Shown: positions 52,701 through 59,038 of the stretch, in pieces | Layout of the letters: the number at the start of each line of letters is the position of its first letter | Position numbering within the stretch: position 1 is the first letter of the stretch | Assembly (NCBI GenBank): GCA_027488815.1 | Contig: JAIYAX010000026.1 | Span: 141,812 to 205,811 of the forward strand | Source of the DNA: Cytophagaceae bacterium | GTDB lineage: Bacteria > Bacteroidota > Bacteroidia > Cytophagales > JAIYAX01 | Reading direction: 5' to 3' | DNA: 64,000 nucleotides | The notes under the pieces: model-generated | Seen by the model: only the letters and a program-made list of their open reading frames with translations | What the model was told of the DNA's origin: nothing | Database searches by the model: none | Translations under genes and position numbers: made by a program

Positions 52701-54185
52701 TTACCTGATGACCAGCTTTTTGTGGAGTAACATTCCCTCGGTTTCCAGTTGCAGCAGATAAAGTCCGGCTGCCAGCTCAGGTAATGGAAGGATGATTTGG
52801 TGTAAACCGGATGCATACCACTGGTTAAGAATAGACCCATCGACACAGTTGCCCTTCATGTCCCTGATGCTGATGTTCATTTTCCCCGGGCGATTCATCT
52901 GCCATTGCAGGCTGATCTCTCGTTCGGCAGGGTTAGGATAGAATCCGATGAACTGAATAGGCTCCTGATGGCTCTCTTCAATGCCGGTGATGTTGGCTGC
53001 CAGCACACTTTCATACAACACCTGACCTATTCGATCCAGTGAGGCAGGTTGTTGATTGCATAGGATGCTGATGTTTATTCCATTTTGTGGATTGCCGTAC
53101 ATAAAGGCCTTGTAGCCGGTGGCAGAGCCTCCATGACCCACTACACCAGCGCCTACGGCTGAGTTGTTAAACACTCCATAGCCCGGAAAATCATTGTAAT
53201 TCGCAACCGGAATAGGGTTGAGGCTGGAATCTACGGACCGCAGCATGGAATCATAAGCCGATGGAGGTAATAAAGTTCCACCATACAGGTTTCTGGCATA
53301 CTTAGCGATGTCAGCAGCAGTGCTCACGATGGCACCGGTGGCCCAGGCACCTGATGCGATCGATGTAAATGGAAAGACGTTTTGTATGTTCATGACACCG
53401 GAAGGGACCGGAAGCAAGATGGAAAGGTCGTCATGAGGGTGTGCCAAAAATCCTGAGGCAGGCTCTGCTATGGCCAGGTACGTGTTGTTCAGGGCCAAGG
53501 GTTGGAATATCCGGCTTCTAAACAGTTGATGGATGCTTGAGTCCGTGACCCCTTCAGCCACCATGCCCAGCAGAATGTAGTTGGTGCTGGAATATGACCT
53601 GCTCGCCCCAAGTGCAAACAAAGGTGTGGGAGTAAAGCCAATGGCCTCTCGGGGGCTGTATACTTTGGTGCCGTTATTGGCCACCACATCCAATATGAAA
53701 CCCAGACTGGTGACATAATCACCATGGCCTGTGGCATGGGTGAGGCATTGGCGGATCGTCGCCTGGTTTCGGATATTAGGCAAGGGGTTGCTTACCAGCG
53801 TGTCAATCCAACGGCCTATGGTATCGTCGAGCGAAAGCCTGCCCTCTGCCATAAGCATAAGAATGATACTGGCTGTGAACGATTTGGTGACGCTGTATAC
53901 CCTGGAACGCATGGTGTCCTGCCAGAGTAAGGCAGCAGGCACTCCAAAGTTAGGATTGGCAGCACCTGCCTGACCGGAAACACCCGTCCAAATACCCACA
54001 TTCCGCACGTCTACTGCTGCCGAAAAGCCGGCGATGTAAACAGGACTTTGAGAAGAAGTGCGGCAACTGTCCAGGACAAATTGCAGCCTTGCTGTCAAAG
54101 CTTGAGGAAGCGGTTGCGAATAAACAAAGTGGGTAAAATTGCCTGAAAGACAAGTGAATAGGATTAGAAAGTACAGGTTTCTCAT
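52701..54185 (-). CDS. Serine hydrolase (beta-lactamase family) with T9SS sorting domain
   Basis: A 494-residue secreted enzyme. Signal peptide about residues 1-22. The beta-lactamase/DD-peptidase domain has nucleophile motif SVTKS (SxxK) near residue 105 and a YSSTNYILLG segment (Y-S-S) near 195, plus GHGGSATGYKAF near 355. The last 80 residues start FYPNPAEREISLQWQ and form a T9SS sorting domain, so the hydrolase should be displayed on or released from the surface. It converges with parE, with 18 bases between stops. Substrate unknown; it is unrelated in layout to the lipoprotein hydrolase at 1.4 kb. Confidence 0.9.
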   Translation of the reverse strand: MRNLYFLILFTCLSGNFTHFVYSQPLPQALTARLQFVLDSCRTSSQSPVYIAGFSAAVDVRNVGIWTGVSGQAGAANPNFGVPAALLWQDTMRSRVYSVTKSFTASIILMLMAEGRLSLDDTIGRWIDTLVSNPLPNIRNQATIRQCLTHATGHGDYVTSLGFILDVVANNGTKVYSPREAIGFTPTPLFALGASRSYSSTNYILLGMVAEGVTDSSIHQLFRSRIFQPLALNNTYLAIAEPASGFLAHPHDDLSILLPVPSGVMNIQNVFPFTSIASGAWATGAIVSTAADIAKYARNLYGGTLLPPSAYDSMLRSVDSSLNPIPVANYNDFPGYGVFNNSAVGAGVVGHGGSATGYKAFMYGNPQNGINISILCNQQPASLDRIGQVLYESVLAANITGIEESHQEPIQFIGFYPNPAEREISLQWQMNRPGKMNISIRDMKGNCVDGSILNQWYASGLHQIILPLPELAAGLYLLQLETEGMLLHKKLVIR

Positions 54186-54233: not shown

Positions 54234-55619
54234 CTATTTAAGGTTTTCGTAGAAGAGCAACTCCGGTTCAGTAGGCGGGGGAGGAGGTAAGCCTTCTGTC
54301 TTCCGGAGGTAGTTAAGAGCAGAGGAGTATTGCCAGTCAAAATCTGCTATGAAATCCGGGGTTTTGCCACTGAGGTAAATTTGTTTGCTGAGGCTGAGTA
54401 TATCCACGTTGTTGTTCATCCCCGGCCACAGATAATACCTAAGGCCACCTTTGTAGGCTTTTCGCTTTTTGAATTCTTCCAAAACCGGAAGTTGTTCCAC
54501 GATCCACAGACTGCTTTGGTAGGCTATGGGCTGATGGATCATCAACATGACAAACACCAGCATTTGGGTTCTTTTAGTCAGTCTTTGGCTGATGTACCAG
54601 CAACCAATGGCAAATACACCCAGTAAAACCAGGTAAGCAGGTAGGAAAAACACATAATTGTCAGAGACGATGTAGCGCATGCTGAAAAAGTAGGTAGGCC
54701 CGGCGGCGATCAGGGAAAACCAGAAAAAGCGGCGATGATGTTTCCATAGCATCCGGAACCCATACGCCATTGGTATCAAAGCAAGCCAGAAATTGTAGAA
54801 CAGGTACATGATGGATTGTAAAAATCCTTTGACGATCACCATTGGGTCAAGACTAAGCACTTCTTCTTGATAGCCTCCGCCAAAGAAAACTTCCCTCAAG
54901 GGCTGCTCAGGAAACCAAAGGCAACCCAGAGTGGGGCTCAGACAAACGCCCAGGCACAACAAGGCCAGTGACAAGGATTTGAGTAGGGTTTCATCCTGAC
55001 GGGTATAGCCTACGTAAGCCAACATCAGCGGATAAAACAAGGTGCCCTGTATATGCACGAAGCACAAGAGGCCCAGCACCAAAAGGATCGCCCAAAGCCT
55101 CTTGCGTCCACGATCTTTGATGTCCAGAAGCAACAGGGAAAGAAAAACAACTACAAGACAACTGTTCATGGTGTACACCTCTATGATCTCTGCTGTCTTC
55201 CAATGGCTGAACGAAAATGCCCAAACAGAGGCAACTGTTATAGAAAGCACAATGGACTGGCTGAGCCTAAAGGCCATCAGGTGAACCAGAAGCACTCCTA
55301 ATACACCCCAGATGGCAACAAAGACGTGAATCGATTTGATACCTGAGTCGATCGGAACAGAAATATACCAGGCATGTGCCAGATTTTTGTACAAAAAATG
55401 GGTCACGGCACCGGTAGAAGGATTCCAGCCGGCAATGATGGTTTCATAATGGTTGACCGAGTCTCCAAACGTTAGAAAGTCTAGGCCATGATACAGGTAG
55501 ATCAAGGCAATGACCAGTGCAAACAATCCAATGGACAAATGGCCCAATTGGCTATGAATTAACGAATTAGTTTTCAGCAAGGTATCTGTGGACAAAGCTG
55601 ATTGACATGGAGCCTTCAC
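54234..55619 (-). CDS. Multi-TM glycosyltransferase-like protein (DUF2723/PMT-like)
   Basis: About 450 residues with 10 or so hydrophobic helices. The central SFSHWKTAEIIEVYTMNSCLV resembles the conserved AEVYTLNA segment of DUF2723/TMEM260 and mannosyltransferase-like proteins. The N-terminal loop after helix 1 has an acidic Asp (FLTFGDSVNHYE), as in GT-C enzymes. The substrate is unknown. The start is unclear. The longest frame begins with a GTG at 55619 that overlaps the upstream flavoprotein by 53 bases. TTG codons at 55580 and 55547 are alternatives. Last gene of the redox-signalling operon by position only. Confidence 0.6.
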   Translation of the reverse strand: MKAPCQSALSTDTLLKTNSLIHSQLGHLSIGLFALVIALIYLYHGLDFLTFGDSVNHYETIIAGWNPSTGAVTHFLYKNLAHAWYISVPIDSGIKSIHVFVAIWGVLGVLLVHLMAFRLSQSIVLSITVASVWAFSFSHWKTAEIIEVYTMNSCLVVVFLSLLLLDIKDRGRKRLWAILLVLGLLCFVHIQGTLFYPLMLAYVGYTRQDETLLKSLSLALLCLGVCLSPTLGCLWFPEQPLREVFFGGGYQEEVLSLDPMVIVKGFLQSIMYLFYNFWLALIPMAYGFRMLWKHHRRFFWFSLIAAGPTYFFSMRYIVSDNYVFFLPAYLVLLGVFAIGCWYISQRLTKRTQMLVFVMLMIHQPIAYQSSLWIVEQLPVLEEFKKRKAYKGGLRYYLWPGMNNNVDILSLSKQIYLSGKTPDFIADFDWQYSSALNYLRKTEGLPPPPPTEPELLFYENLK

Positions 55620-57228
55620 CTACCGCACTTGCCACCCGGTTCATGGCTCCGGAGCGCACATCTCCGGCAGCAAATATCCCCGGCATACTGGTTTCCAGCA
55701 AATAAGGCTCTCTTTTTTGCTTCCAGCTATTTTTAAACTCCTGACGCAGGCTAAGGTCCCTGCCCGTTTCAATATAGCCCTTTTCATCAAGCAGGATCTC
55801 AGGAGGAAGCCAGGACGTATTGGGCTTGGCTCCGATAAAAATAAACAGAGCTGATACATGCCTGACCTCTACAGTACCCGTACTTATGTTTTTTAAGCAG
55901 AGTTGCTCCAATTTCTCAGCCCCATTCACCTCCACGATTTCAGAAAAAGGAACCACTTCGATGGTTTCAGTTTTTGAAATCTGATCAATGAGGTATTGGG
56001 ACATGGTTTCGCTCAGGTCATTTCTTCGGATAACGAGGTGCACACGTTTGGCGTAGGTGGAGAGGTACATGGCTGCCTGTCCAGCACTGTTTCCGCCCCC
56101 GACGATGTACACTTCACGGTCTTTGCAGGCATAGGCTTCGGTGTTTGCTGCACCATAATAAATACCGGCTCCTGTAAAATTTTCTTCGTTTTTAGCTCCC
56201 AGTTGACGGTATTCAACGCCGGTTGTGATCACTATAGCCTTAGCAACAACCACTTTATCCTGCTCCAATCTTAGCACTTTGTACTGATCACGCAGCTCGA
56301 TTTGTTGCACCGATTGAGGAGAAAAGAATTCAACTCCAAAACGGGTGGCTTGAGTGATCGCTCTTCTCGTAAGATCTGCGCCACTAAGTCCGGAAGGGAA
56401 GCCCAGGTAATTTTCAATACGGGAGCTGGTTCCAGCCTGACCTCCGGGAGCCCTTTTTTCGATCAGAATCGTTTTAAGACCTTCAGAGCCACCGTAAACC
56501 GAGGCCGCCAATCCGGCAGGGCCAGCCCCGATGATGGCCACATCGTAGACCTCCTGCTTGGCTTCCAAAGGTCGCCCCATCTTTTCAGCTATGATGGCAG
56601 GGCTAGGCCTTTTCAGGATGGATCCGTCTTCCAGAAGCACCAGGGGCAGGTCAGCAATGGTCGATTCAGCAAGAAGCATCAATTCTTCAGCTTCGGGCTG
56701 GCTTTCAACATCGAGCCAGCGGTAGGGGATCAGGTTGCCGGTAAGGAAATCTTTGATCTGATGGGAAAGGGGAGCGTATTGAAATCCAATCAATCGTATG
56801 CCTTTGCCTTCGGGAATGTAGTGCATGAACCACTCCTCCAACTGATCGTTCAGCACTGGATAGAGCTTTTCCTCAGGAGGATCCCAGGGTTTTGTAAGGT
56901 AATAATGAAGCTGCACCTCATTGATGGCTCTGATGGCTGCATCAGTGTCTGAATAGGCGGTAAGCAAGATGCGTTTAGCTTTGGGGAACAGCTTTTTAGC
57001 TTTTTCAAGAAACTCTACACCCAACATCTCCGGCATGCGCTGGTCAGAGAGCAACAAGGCTACATCTTCATTTTTACGTCTCAGCTCTTCCAGATAGCTT
57101 AGAGCCTCGGTAGCTGAGGTGGTCGACACGATGCGGTATTCAGCCCTGTACTTGCTTTTCAGGTCTCTGCTGATGGCTTGCAATACTTGCAGATCATCAT
57201 CCACAGCCATGATCACGGGTAAACTCAT
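55567..57228 (-). CDS. Response regulator fused to thioredoxin-reductase-like flavoprotein
   Basis: A 553-residue fusion. Residues 1-130 are a receiver domain with phospho-acceptor Asp62 (LLLSDQRMPE) and Lys113 (LTKPW). Residues 142-220 resemble a glutaredoxin-fold segment whose CPYC is replaced by APLS (residues 152-155). Residues 228-553 are a thioredoxin-reductase-like FAD/NAD(P)H module: GAGPAG (234-239), GGGNSAG (377-383) and a final GIFAAGDV. The CxxC of thioredoxin reductase is absent: the place reads YYGAANTEAYAC. It therefore cannot do the classical disulfide chemistry. It starts within the stop of the sensor kinase gene (4-base overlap) and is its likely partner. Confidence 0.92.
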   Translation of the reverse strand: MSLPVIMAVDDDLQVLQAISRDLKSKYRAEYRIVSTTSATEALSYLEELRRKNEDVALLLSDQRMPEMLGVEFLEKAKKLFPKAKRILLTAYSDTDAAIRAINEVQLHYYLTKPWDPPEEKLYPVLNDQLEEWFMHYIPEGKGIRLIGFQYAPLSHQIKDFLTGNLIPYRWLDVESQPEAEELMLLAESTIADLPLVLLEDGSILKRPSPAIIAEKMGRPLEAKQEVYDVAIIGAGPAGLAASVYGGSEGLKTILIEKRAPGGQAGTSSRIENYLGFPSGLSGADLTRRAITQATRFGVEFFSPQSVQQIELRDQYKVLRLEQDKVVVAKAIVITTGVEYRQLGAKNEENFTGAGIYYGAANTEAYACKDREVYIVGGGNSAGQAAMYLSTYAKRVHLVIRRNDLSETMSQYLIDQISKTETIEVVPFSEIVEVNGAEKLEQLCLKNISTGTVEVRHVSALFIFIGAKPNTSWLPPEILLDEKGYIETGRDLSLRQEFKNSWKQKREPYLLETSMPGIFAAGDVRSGAMNRVASAVGEGSMSISFVHRYLAEN

Positions 57229-58637
57229 TCTTTTTCGTTGGTAGAGGGTTGAATGGGCAAATTAATGATAAACTCTGTGCGGTCGGGCTGTGATTTTAAC
57301 CTGATGTTGCCTCCATGATTTTTGATGATTTTCATGGAAATATCCAGCCCAAGTCCGGTGCCTTTGCCCAGGGCTTTGGTGGTGAAGAAAGGGTCATAGA
57401 TTTTTGATTGAATATCTGGAGGCACACCCGGCCCATTGTCAATCATGTGCACATAGGCACATGCCAGGTCAGTGCTTACGGCTACTTCAATTTTACCACC
57501 TTCTGTTATGGCATCAAGAGCATTGTCGAGCACATTGGTCCATACCTGATTGAGCTGACCCGGCCTACCATGTATTTCAGGCATTTTTTCAGGGTAACTT
57601 TCGGTGATCTCTGCCTTTTTCTCTTTGATTTTATGGCCCAGCATAGTGATCGTACTTCGCAATCCGGCTTTGAGGTCTACAACTTCTATCTCCAGGCCTC
57701 GGTCCATGTGGGAGTAGGTCTTGACAGAACTGACCAATTCAGCTATTCGTCGTGAGGACTCTTCGATCTCTGAGACCAATTGCTCTGTGGTCAACACATT
57801 TTCAACCCATCGAAGCACTACTGCCAGGTGCACATCAGGTACCAGTTTGCTAATTTCTTCGAGGTCAGAAGGTATAATCCCAACACTTACCAGGCTTTCG
57901 GCAAGTTCATAAGGCTTGGTAATGCCGTGCTGTTCCATCCAATCCACAATATCATCTTCTCGCCGGCTTTTTTCCATGAGACTAATGCCTTGCCGATCTT
58001 GAGAAAGTTTATTGAACACCAGTTCATTTACCAGATCAATGGAGTGGTCATCCATTTGAATTTTGATTACCGCTTTGAATCGTTCAGGAGTATGTCCCAG
58101 ATGGTCACGTAGCGCAGCAGCCGAGCGTAACATGGCTGCACTTGGGTTGTTCAACTCATGTGCCAGACCTGCTGAAAGTTTACCCAGCGAAATCAGCTTT
58201 TCGTTCTGTTGCTGCTGAGCGGTGAAATCCCTCACCCTCGTGGTCATATAGGACACCAGGTTCTGCATCAGGGTATAAGAGATTTGCTCCATTCCTTTGA
58301 AGTGGTCTCGGTGCAGGCTGAGCACTTCGCTTTCTTCCTGCGCTTGCCCAAAACCGGTGGCTTCTTTCATTCTGGAGTAGGGAAGAACTCCGGTGATAGC
58401 ACCCGGATCGAGTTGGCCAACGGTGACACGCTGCCCGTTTTGCTCGAAATAAATTTGAAAACGACCGCTAAGTACCACGTGCATGTAGAGGCTCTCTTCT
58501 CCACGGCTGAACAGGTACTCACCTTTCTGAAAATTCCGGATGATGGATTTATCCATGAGCCATTCCAAAGCAGGAGCTTCTACTTCCGCCAAAAAGGCAT
58601 TGAGGCGAATAGATGCCAGAATTTGTTCTTTAGTCAT
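57225..58637 (-). CDS. Cyclic-nucleotide-binding histidine kinase
   Basis: A 470-residue soluble sensor kinase. Residues 1-135 form a cyclic-nucleotide-binding (cNMP) domain with FQKGEYLFSRGEESLYMHVV and a later LDPGAITGVLPYSR. The dimerisation helix has LGKLSAGLAHELNNPSAAML with phospho-acceptor His160. The ATPase part shows VWTNVLDNALDAI (N box), DNGPGVPP (G1) and GKGTGLGLDIS (G2). No membrane segment is present, so the signal is cytosolic. The 4-base overlaps with OsmC upstream and the REC-flavoprotein downstream show strict coupling. The ligand of the cNMP domain is unknown. Confidence 0.93.
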   Translation of the reverse strand: MTKEQILASIRLNAFLAEVEAPALEWLMDKSIIRNFQKGEYLFSRGEESLYMHVVLSGRFQIYFEQNGQRVTVGQLDPGAITGVLPYSRMKEATGFGQAQEESEVLSLHRDHFKGMEQISYTLMQNLVSYMTTRVRDFTAQQQQNEKLISLGKLSAGLAHELNNPSAAMLRSAAALRDHLGHTPERFKAVIKIQMDDHSIDLVNELVFNKLSQDRQGISLMEKSRREDDIVDWMEQHGITKPYELAESLVSVGIIPSDLEEISKLVPDVHLAVVLRWVENVLTTEQLVSEIEESSRRIAELVSSVKTYSHMDRGLEIEVVDLKAGLRSTITMLGHKIKEKKAEITESYPEKMPEIHGRPGQLNQVWTNVLDNALDAITEGGKIEVAVSTDLACAYVHMIDNGPGVPPDIQSKIYDPFFTTKALGKGTGLGLDISMKIIKNHGGNIRLKSQPDRTEFIINLPIQPSTNEKE

Positions 58638-59038
58638 CCGCTTATTTTCGTTGAAATGATATTGGTGCCACTAAGTGTTTTGTGCAGTGGGCATGCATTG
58701 GCAATTTGCAGCAGTCGCTCCACCTGATCTGTTGGTGTATCCTCAGGCACCCTTATTTCACGTTCAAAGTAGGTGTTTGTTTCGCCTGAAACGGTTTCTC
58801 TTCGCATGTTGAGCTTAACTTTTAACTCGGGGATGTTCCAGCCTTTTCGATCGATGTACATGCGCAGCGTGATGGCCGTGCAAGAACCCAGTGCCCCCAG
58901 CAGCCATTCGTCCGGGCTAAAAGCCTCATCTGTTCCACCCTCTGAGAGAGGTTCATCTGCCAAAGAGTGATGACGGCCATTACTGAGCCTGCTAAGGTAA
59001 TGCTCTCCGGTCTGGCTGACCGTAACCTGTACTTCCAT
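58634..59038 (-). CDS. OsmC/Ohr family peroxidase-like protein
   Basis: A 134-residue OsmC-family protein. The two redox Cys are Cys53 in GALGSCTAITLRMY and Cys116 in ANACPLHKTL, both conserved in the family. OsmC and Ohr reduce organic hydroperoxides using lipoyl or similar thiols. The C-terminal half has RVPEDTPTDQVERLLQIA. It is the first gene of the OsmC-kinase-REC/flavoprotein set and overlaps the kinase gene by 4 bases. This supports a peroxide or electrophile stress role for the operon. Confidence 0.93.
   Translation of the reverse strand: MEVQVTVSQTGEHYLSRLSNGRHHSLADEPLSEGGTDEAFSPDEWLLGALGSCTAITLRMYIDRKGWNIPELKVKLNMRRETVSGETNTYFEREIRVPEDTPTDQVERLLQIANACPLHKTLSGTNIISTKISG

Follow-up and report, generated by a model that had tools for sequence, protein, structure and literature searches.

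TrxB-type thioredoxin reductases (TrxR) combine FAD and NAD(P)H domains with a redox CxxC motif, AhpF carries a thioredoxin-fold part in front of its TrxR-like core, and enzymes of the YpdA type are thought to work without a cysteine pair of their own. In the KefC/KefF system, as presented in PMC10224563, a flavoprotein, the FMN quinone reductase KefF, is encoded together with a K+/H+ antiporter that takes part in electrophile defence; KefF attaches to the cytosolic domain of KefC. Here we analyzed a stretch of 64,000 nucleotides, referred to as the window, from Cytophagaceae bacterium (assembly GCA_027488815.1, contig JAIYAX010000026.1, positions 141,812 to 205,811). Three of its genes encode an OsmC-family protein, a histidine kinase with a cyclic nucleotide-binding domain (CNBD), and a flavoprotein composed of a receiver domain (REC), a glutaredoxin (Grx)-like domain and a TrxR-like core in which both redox cysteine motifs are replaced. 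We tentatively propose that the kinase and the flavoprotein form a two-component system with a flavoenzyme as output, which may act in thiol and electrophile defence. If true, an NAD(P)H/FAD protein would be the output of a two-component system in at least five phyla. No description of this kinase-flavoprotein wiring was found by title or abstract in the open-licence literature searched.

Domain layout and replaced redox motifs

A sequence-only reading of the window had described three minus-strand genes overlapping by 4 bases each, and this layout was borne out exactly by the open reading frames. The features are as follows.

58634-59038, minus strand: OsmC-family protein, 134 aa (PF02566, 55.2 bits, cut-off 27.5)
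58634-58637, minus strand: ATGA overlap of 4 nt between the OsmC and kinase genes
57225-58637, minus strand: CNBD histidine kinase, 470 aa (Pfam domains, open reading frame)
58218-58637, minus strand: CNBD-like domain, kinase residues ~1-140, family motif GxLPFSR
58158-58160, minus strand: kinase His160 in LAHELNNP, invariant in 30 aligned kinases
57225-57228, minus strand: ATGA overlap of 4 nt between the kinase and flavoprotein genes
55567-57228, minus strand: flavoprotein with REC, Grx-like and TrxR-like parts, 553 aa
56839-57228, minus strand: receiver domain, flavoprotein residues ~1-130 (PF00072), with Asp62 at 57043-57045
56563-56811, minus strand: Grx-like domain, residues ~140-222; P195 invariant, alignable with the Cys-intact Grx of locus L103
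56764-56775, minus strand: APLS replacing CPxC, residues 152-155 (family consensus SPxS)
55570-56553, minus strand: TrxR-like module for FAD and NAD(P)H, residues 226-553 (PF07992; VIA match to 5mh4)
56140-56151, minus strand: AANT (residues 360-363) at the site of the redox CxxC, with Glu364 next to it

Pfam scores exceeded the cut-offs for the kinase (cNMP_binding 52.6 bits against 27.5, HisKA 27.8 against 26.9, HATPase_c 81.4 against 26.4) and for the flavoprotein (Response_reg 56.8 bits against 30.2, Pyr_redox_2 116.7 against 26.1), which was scanned without its first Met, so that the scan numbering is 1 lower. An intact receiver and an intact FAD and NAD(P)H module had been claimed, and both are found: D10, D11, D62, T90 and K113 are present and conserved in the flavoprotein family, and so are the FAD and NAD(P)H motifs, R401 and Y412-L413.

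Relatives that align along almost the entire flavoprotein with 58-66% identity were found at 80 loci, the best 80 of at least 589, and judged by these alignments the match is far beyond chance. Because the best 80 were taken, the sample leans to Bacteroidota; it includes a bin named Thalassobius (L041), and other phyla were seen through 13 opened plasmid loci of 126 matching records. The 166 loci with a flavoprotein yielded 133 distinct proteins after deduplication by the C-terminal 380 residues. Two alignments were used, one of 98 REC-type and 12 TrxR-like proteins and one of the 133 distinct members with 6 outgroups.

When the family was aligned at the CxxC position, as the sequence-only reading had suggested, the flavin-site motif was present in none of the 133 members. 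The first position (360) is Ala in 126 and Ser in 7 members, the second (363) is Thr in 119 and Cys in none, and position 364, where TrxR-like proteins carry Asp, is Glu in 131; C-x-x-C-D was found in 11 of the 12 TrxR-like comparison proteins. The residues flanking the former motif are kept (Y358 in 133/133, G359 in 130/133), as is the receiver Asp62 (127/133). The Grx-like CPxC usually reads S-P-x-S, with S152 in 128, P153 in 105 and S155 in 108 members and Cys155 in 3. Both motifs are thus replaced in the window protein, as had been noted, and the redox sites are absent there, but to call them lost is misleading, since this state is common to the whole sampled family. Similarly, CPYC was said to have become APLS, which is what the window reads, but its Ala152 is a minority state (2/133 members) and S-P-x-S is the usual replacement. 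Decay confined to the window protein was rejected in view of the Cys-less state of the 133-member clade. A Cys pair relocated elsewhere in homologues, which had been named as a point that would speak against the reading, was rejected as well: any CxxC occurred in only 2 of the 133 members, and at places unrelated to the former motif. No single Cys is invariant, and even the column in which it is most frequent, C368, holds Cys in 93/133 members.

In a core-domain tree (six outgroup sequences, a single FastTree run), the 133 Cys-less members formed one clade with a support of 0.92. As all of them are Cys-less and form one clade, the double cysteine loss is common to the sampled family. The closest Cys-intact relative found is a Grx-Grx-TrxR fusion (L103:1258-2664) that branches beside this clade; it is of the same order and has an alignable Grx and core, but keeps CPDC and CATC and has no receiver. 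Three architectures occur among the flavoproteins, with a receiver, with a CNBD or with no domain at the N terminus. The CNBD-type members L123, L124, L125 and L178 match cNMP_binding above the cut-off, L177 and L179 lack an N-terminal domain, and the N terminus of L181 is CNBD-like by eye only. A clade of 130 members, 125 of them with a receiver, also includes L124, L125, L177, L179 and L180. On the tree, the members with a receiver thus do not separate cleanly from the others, so swaps or losses of the N-terminal domain have taken place.

The flavoprotein class is already annotated in RefSeq, where family members and their CNBD-type cousins are named "FAD-dependent oxidoreductase" or "cyclic nucleotide-binding domain-containing thioredoxin-disulfide reductase". 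In part, the annotation thus implies a disulfide reductase. The cysteines that this would require are absent from all members seen, and such an activity finds no support in the sequences. The flavoprotein shares the TrxR fold, the FAD and NAD(P)H domains and ~30% identity with TrxB, but lacks the CxxC, adds the REC and Grx-like domains and stays below the equivalog cut-off of NCBIfam model TIGR01292 (243.7 against 343.45 bits). It resembles AhpF in having a thioredoxin-fold part before the core, and AhpF structure 4xvg came first by E-value in Foldseek (root mean square deviation [rmsd], 18.5). Unlike AhpF, it has neither CxxC and adds a receiver, and its score for TIGR03140 was 148.6 bits against a cut-off of 502.9.

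The structure model of the flavoprotein (mean predicted local distance difference test score [pLDDT], 86.5; predicted template modeling score [pTM], 0.71) matched 5mh4, which is labelled flavin-reducing, with a VIA Z score of 31.4 and an rmsd of 2.6 over 299 residues, compared to rmsd values of 7.5 and 5.9 for 5mjk and 5w4c, which are labelled flavin-oxidising. The VIA listing labels no conformation for the other good fits, and its matches barely cover residues 1-221. In a flavin-reducing pose no movement toward a dithiol is required, which agrees with the missing CxxC.

The histidine kinase as cognate partner

Among 296 Bacteroidota genomes, scanned with thresholds of E ≤ 1e-90 for the flavoprotein and E ≤ 1e-50 for the kinase and with the cut-off for zf-UBP, the flavoprotein was found in 45, in 41 of them as the REC type, and the kinase was found in exactly these 41 genomes. 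The two genes lie within 300 bp of each other in 35 of the 41 and within 5 kb in 39. In the gene maps of 129 loci, whose flanks vary in length (112 have 4 kb on both sides), the kinase lies within 4 kb of the flavoprotein in 115. These counts omit plasmid loci L115, L119, L120 and L121, in which long frames overlap and all of which carry the kinase, L119 and L120 also zf-UBP; loci without a flavoprotein, e.g., L176, L182-L184, L186-L188 and L206-L209, were excluded. None of the receiver-less Bacteroidota members L177-L181 has a kinase within 4 kb; they belong to the 112 loci with full flanks, and 105 of the remaining 107 have one. All 10 opened REC-type plasmid loci (L113-L122), which span Cyanobacteriota, Pseudomonadota, Deinococcota and Actinomycetota, show the kinase in the stretch, and the CNBD-type plasmid loci L123-L125 do not. 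As L177-L181 lack both the receiver and a nearby kinase, the kinase follows the receiver. By co-occurrence and adjacency, the kinase is the true partner of the flavoprotein and the two form a cognate pair. The kinase-flavoprotein link of the sequence-only reading was thus upheld by the co-occurrence check it had proposed, and the rarity of linkage it had considered does not apply to the kinase. Two window-like kinases share a stretch with the flavoprotein in L115, L117 and L118, on Caballeronia, Deinococcus and Paraburkholderia plasmids.

The kinase has a His box and an ATP-binding domain, and the receiver has an acidic pocket, Asp, Thr and Lys, as expected of a two-component system. From the HisKA match we infer that His160 is the phospho-accepting residue, and the conserved residues together with the strict co-occurrence suggest phosphotransfer from the kinase to Asp62. 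In the kinase model (pLDDT 84.1, pTM 0.54), a helical insert separates a long helix (121-181) from a further one (268-313), and the fold search with it returned general kinase matches, mostly with poor rmsd.

A cyclic nucleotide-binding domain had been claimed for the kinase, and cNMP_binding indeed scores above its cut-off. The Glu and Arg of the phosphate-binding cassette define the cyclic-nucleotide pocket. In a single pairwise alignment with 4ev0 of the Crp family, these columns are Val and Ala in the window kinase; the kinase family consensus at the pocket is GxLPFSR, with an invariant Arg89 nearby. As Glu and Arg are absent at the Crp columns, a canonical cyclic nucleotide appears doubtful as the signal of the kinase.

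We propose the following mechanism. The kinase would autophosphorylate on His160 and pass the phosphate to Asp62 of the flavoprotein receiver, and phosphorylation would shift the receiver and the Grx-like domain on the FAD/NAD(P)H core. The core, devoid of its CxxC, would take a hydride from NAD(P)H, and the electrons of FAD would go directly to a small molecule or a partner protein, with no dithiol involved. Protection from thiol-reactive electrophiles and from oxidants is the likely field of action, given that in various genomes relatives adjoin genes for zf-UBP, a KefC-like antiporter, a glyoxalase/dioxygenase, an esterase, a DsbA-like protein, ergothioneine synthesis or OsmC. The antiporter, ergothioneine and OsmC neighbours make this field directly testable.

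zf-UBP, antiporter and other stress-defence neighbours

A zf-UBP protein is a recurrent third partner of the kinase-flavoprotein pair. It was found in 30 of the 296 Bacteroidota genomes, 27 of which also carry the flavoprotein (Fisher test, 4e-23, uncorrected for kinship), which gives bacterial zf-UBP domains a concrete context. In 21 of these 27 genomes it lies within 3 kb of the flavoprotein. It occurs within 4 kb in 52 of the 129 loci, and a KefC-like antiporter does so in 22. In the window genome no zf-UBP match was obtained at E ≤ 0.001. Since the receiver-less L178 and L179 and the CNBD-type Rhodococcus member L123 carry zf-UBP, this protein seems to follow the flavoprotein core. On a Tsukamurella plasmid the order is flavoprotein, kinase, zf-UBP and then a mycothiol-dependent dehydrogenase. 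A run on the Rhodococcus plasmid (L123:189-5245) is annotated as ClpB, thioredoxin, UBP-type zinc finger and CNBD-type flavoprotein.

In L173, L174, L175 and L176 an antiporter-like protein carries the zf-UBP domain at its C terminus:

L173:5575-7602: zf-UBP-antiporter fusion (Pfam Na_H_Exchanger, TrkA_N and zf-UBP)

This fusion is nearest to the KefC/YbaL models of NCBIfam, below their cut-offs. In L182, from a genome without a flavoprotein at the threshold used, antiporter and zf-UBP genes lie 6 bp apart.

Two alternatives to a phosphorylation-controlled flavoenzyme draw on these neighbours. In the first, the flavoprotein would be a catalytically silent signalling protein. Its binding of FAD and NAD(P)H would serve only to read the pyridine-nucleotide state, and its Cys-less domains would offer a phosphorylation-gated platform to a partner, for instance zf-UBP or an antiporter. 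The replacement of both redox motifs amid conserved Y358, G359 and E364, the strict linkage of receiver and kinase, and the presence of zf-UBP also beside receiver-less flavoproteins would suit such a platform. However, conservation of the FAD and NAD(P)H motifs matches that of working enzymes, and the structure closest to the model is a flavin-reducing one, so we regard a silent platform as rather unlikely. In the second, the flavoprotein would gate ion and thiol homeostasis under the control of phosphorylation, with a zf-UBP adaptor docking it on the KefC-like K+/H+ antiporter; the kinase, via Asp62 and the redox state of the flavin, would set when cells acidify against electrophiles. Both the docking and this timing of acidification appear improbable to us; if true, a KefF-like role would have been reached by another flavoprotein, and bacterial zf-UBP domains would have a function. 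Unlike in KefC/KefF, zf-UBP is here attached to the antiporter, and the link, known from genomes, would be one of analogy.

Further neighbours were identified by Pfam on one or two members per cluster; opposite-strand shadow frames, which one protein clustering had included, were disregarded. In the fetched flanks of the 129 loci we found EgtB in 11, EgtD in 10, a dioxygenase in 11, an esterase in 12 and a DsbA-like protein in 12.

L196:1502-8694: seven-gene run of glyoxalase/dioxygenase, Abhydrolase_2 esterase, antiporter, DsbA-like protein (CPYS), zf-UBP, kinase and flavoprotein
L045:1859-4159: EgtB and EgtD beside the kinase-flavoprotein pair; also in L012, L007, L073, L046 and L029

The dioxygenase and esterase bear a resemblance, and no more than that, to the quinone-responsive mhqED pair as it is presented in PMC6798810. 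EgtB and EgtD lie upstream of the pair in some loci, downstream in others and once on the opposite strand; in L045 they score 552.6 bits (cut-off 360) and 301.8 bits (cut-off 290.9). EgtD matches of at least 257 bits occur in 92 genomes (77 at the curated cut-off), namely, in 40 of the 45 flavoprotein genomes versus 52 of the 251 others; the window genome has one of 284.9 bits, just under the cut-off. A bestrophin-type channel gene was seen near the flavoprotein in 10 of the 129 loci, e.g., at L045:7668-8597 and in L116, a Nostoc plasmid.

The ergothioneine genes raise the question of whether the flavoprotein might reduce an oxidised low-molecular-weight thiol (ergothioneine, bacillithiol or coenzyme A disulfide) without a cysteine pair of its own. 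The proximity of EgtB and EgtD to the pair, the frequency of EgtD in flavoprotein genomes, the retained thioredoxin-fold domain and a weak similarity to YpdA (61.6 bits for TIGR04018, below its cut-off of 339.9) speak for such an activity. Yet the EgtD association is confounded by kinship, 5 of the 45 flavoprotein genomes have no EgtD match, and no Cys is invariant, C368 included, which makes this reductase a quite unlikely candidate.

Several points weigh against the proposed two-component system and its flavoenzyme output in stress defence. The co-occurrence tests ignore relatedness, and 16 of the 45 flavoprotein genomes belong to one family, f42; the name Balneolaceae, used for the type of loci represented by L196, comes from L037, L057 and L059, their flavoproteins being duplicates of f42 ones. 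EgtD is also present in flavoprotein-free f42 genomes, and every dioxygenase, esterase and DsbA-like match comes from f42. Of the 27 genomes that have both proteins, 6 carry zf-UBP elsewhere, it is not within 4 kb in 77 of the 129 loci, and the REC-type loci L031 and L035 have no kinase within 4 kb. The flavin-reducing pose may reflect a modelling preference, and the conserved Y358 and E364 would suit catalysis as well as a structural role. Enzyme activity, phosphotransfer and stress phenotype are all predictions from sequence.

OsmC as a local companion

The three genes had been read as one unit including OsmC, and this was not borne out for OsmC. OsmC and flavoprotein are no more than 4 kb apart in 5 of the 129 loci (the window genome as L172, L081, L083, L166 and L185), so that the rare linkage considered in the sequence-only reading does hold for this gene. 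Among these 5, a single overlapping run of OsmC, kinase and flavoprotein occurs only in the window, and the trio was rejected as a conserved unit. L081, L083 and L166, two of which are named Lewinella or Neolewinella, share one arrangement, a downstream protein of 400-457 aa with C-terminal OsmC, which in L081 is a hydrolase plus OsmC by Pfam; in L185 OsmC is divergent. Pure accident was not accepted as an explanation either, as ~0.1-0.2 occurrences were expected (a rough estimate from ~0.4-0.5 hits per ~4-Mb genome) versus the three arrangements seen, which are few events. OsmC is therefore a rare, recurrent companion and in the window genome an unusual local addition.

The OsmC protein of the window exceeds the PF02566 cut-off and does not reach those of the NCBIfam OsmC subfamilies; its Cys53 and Cys116 stand at what we take to be the usual places for the OsmC family. 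A dedicated OsmC system, in which the flavoprotein donates electrons to recycle OsmC, could build on the overlapping genes of the window, the four further nearby loci, an OsmC gene directly before zf-UBP in genome G029 (L184, apart from the flavoprotein) and the presence of OsmC in 31 of the 45 flavoprotein genomes versus 83 of the 251 others (uncorrected for kinship). The same 83 genomes show that OsmC is common without the flavoprotein, its proximity is confined to the 5 loci, and no dithiol is available for the electron handover; we consider recycling highly improbable. Under the proposed flavoenzyme output, OsmC would take the neighbour place in the window genome and probably remove organic peroxides alongside the pair, not as its enzymatic partner.

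Positions 52701-54185 of the window encode a serine hydrolase of the beta-lactamase family that carries a Por secretion tail.

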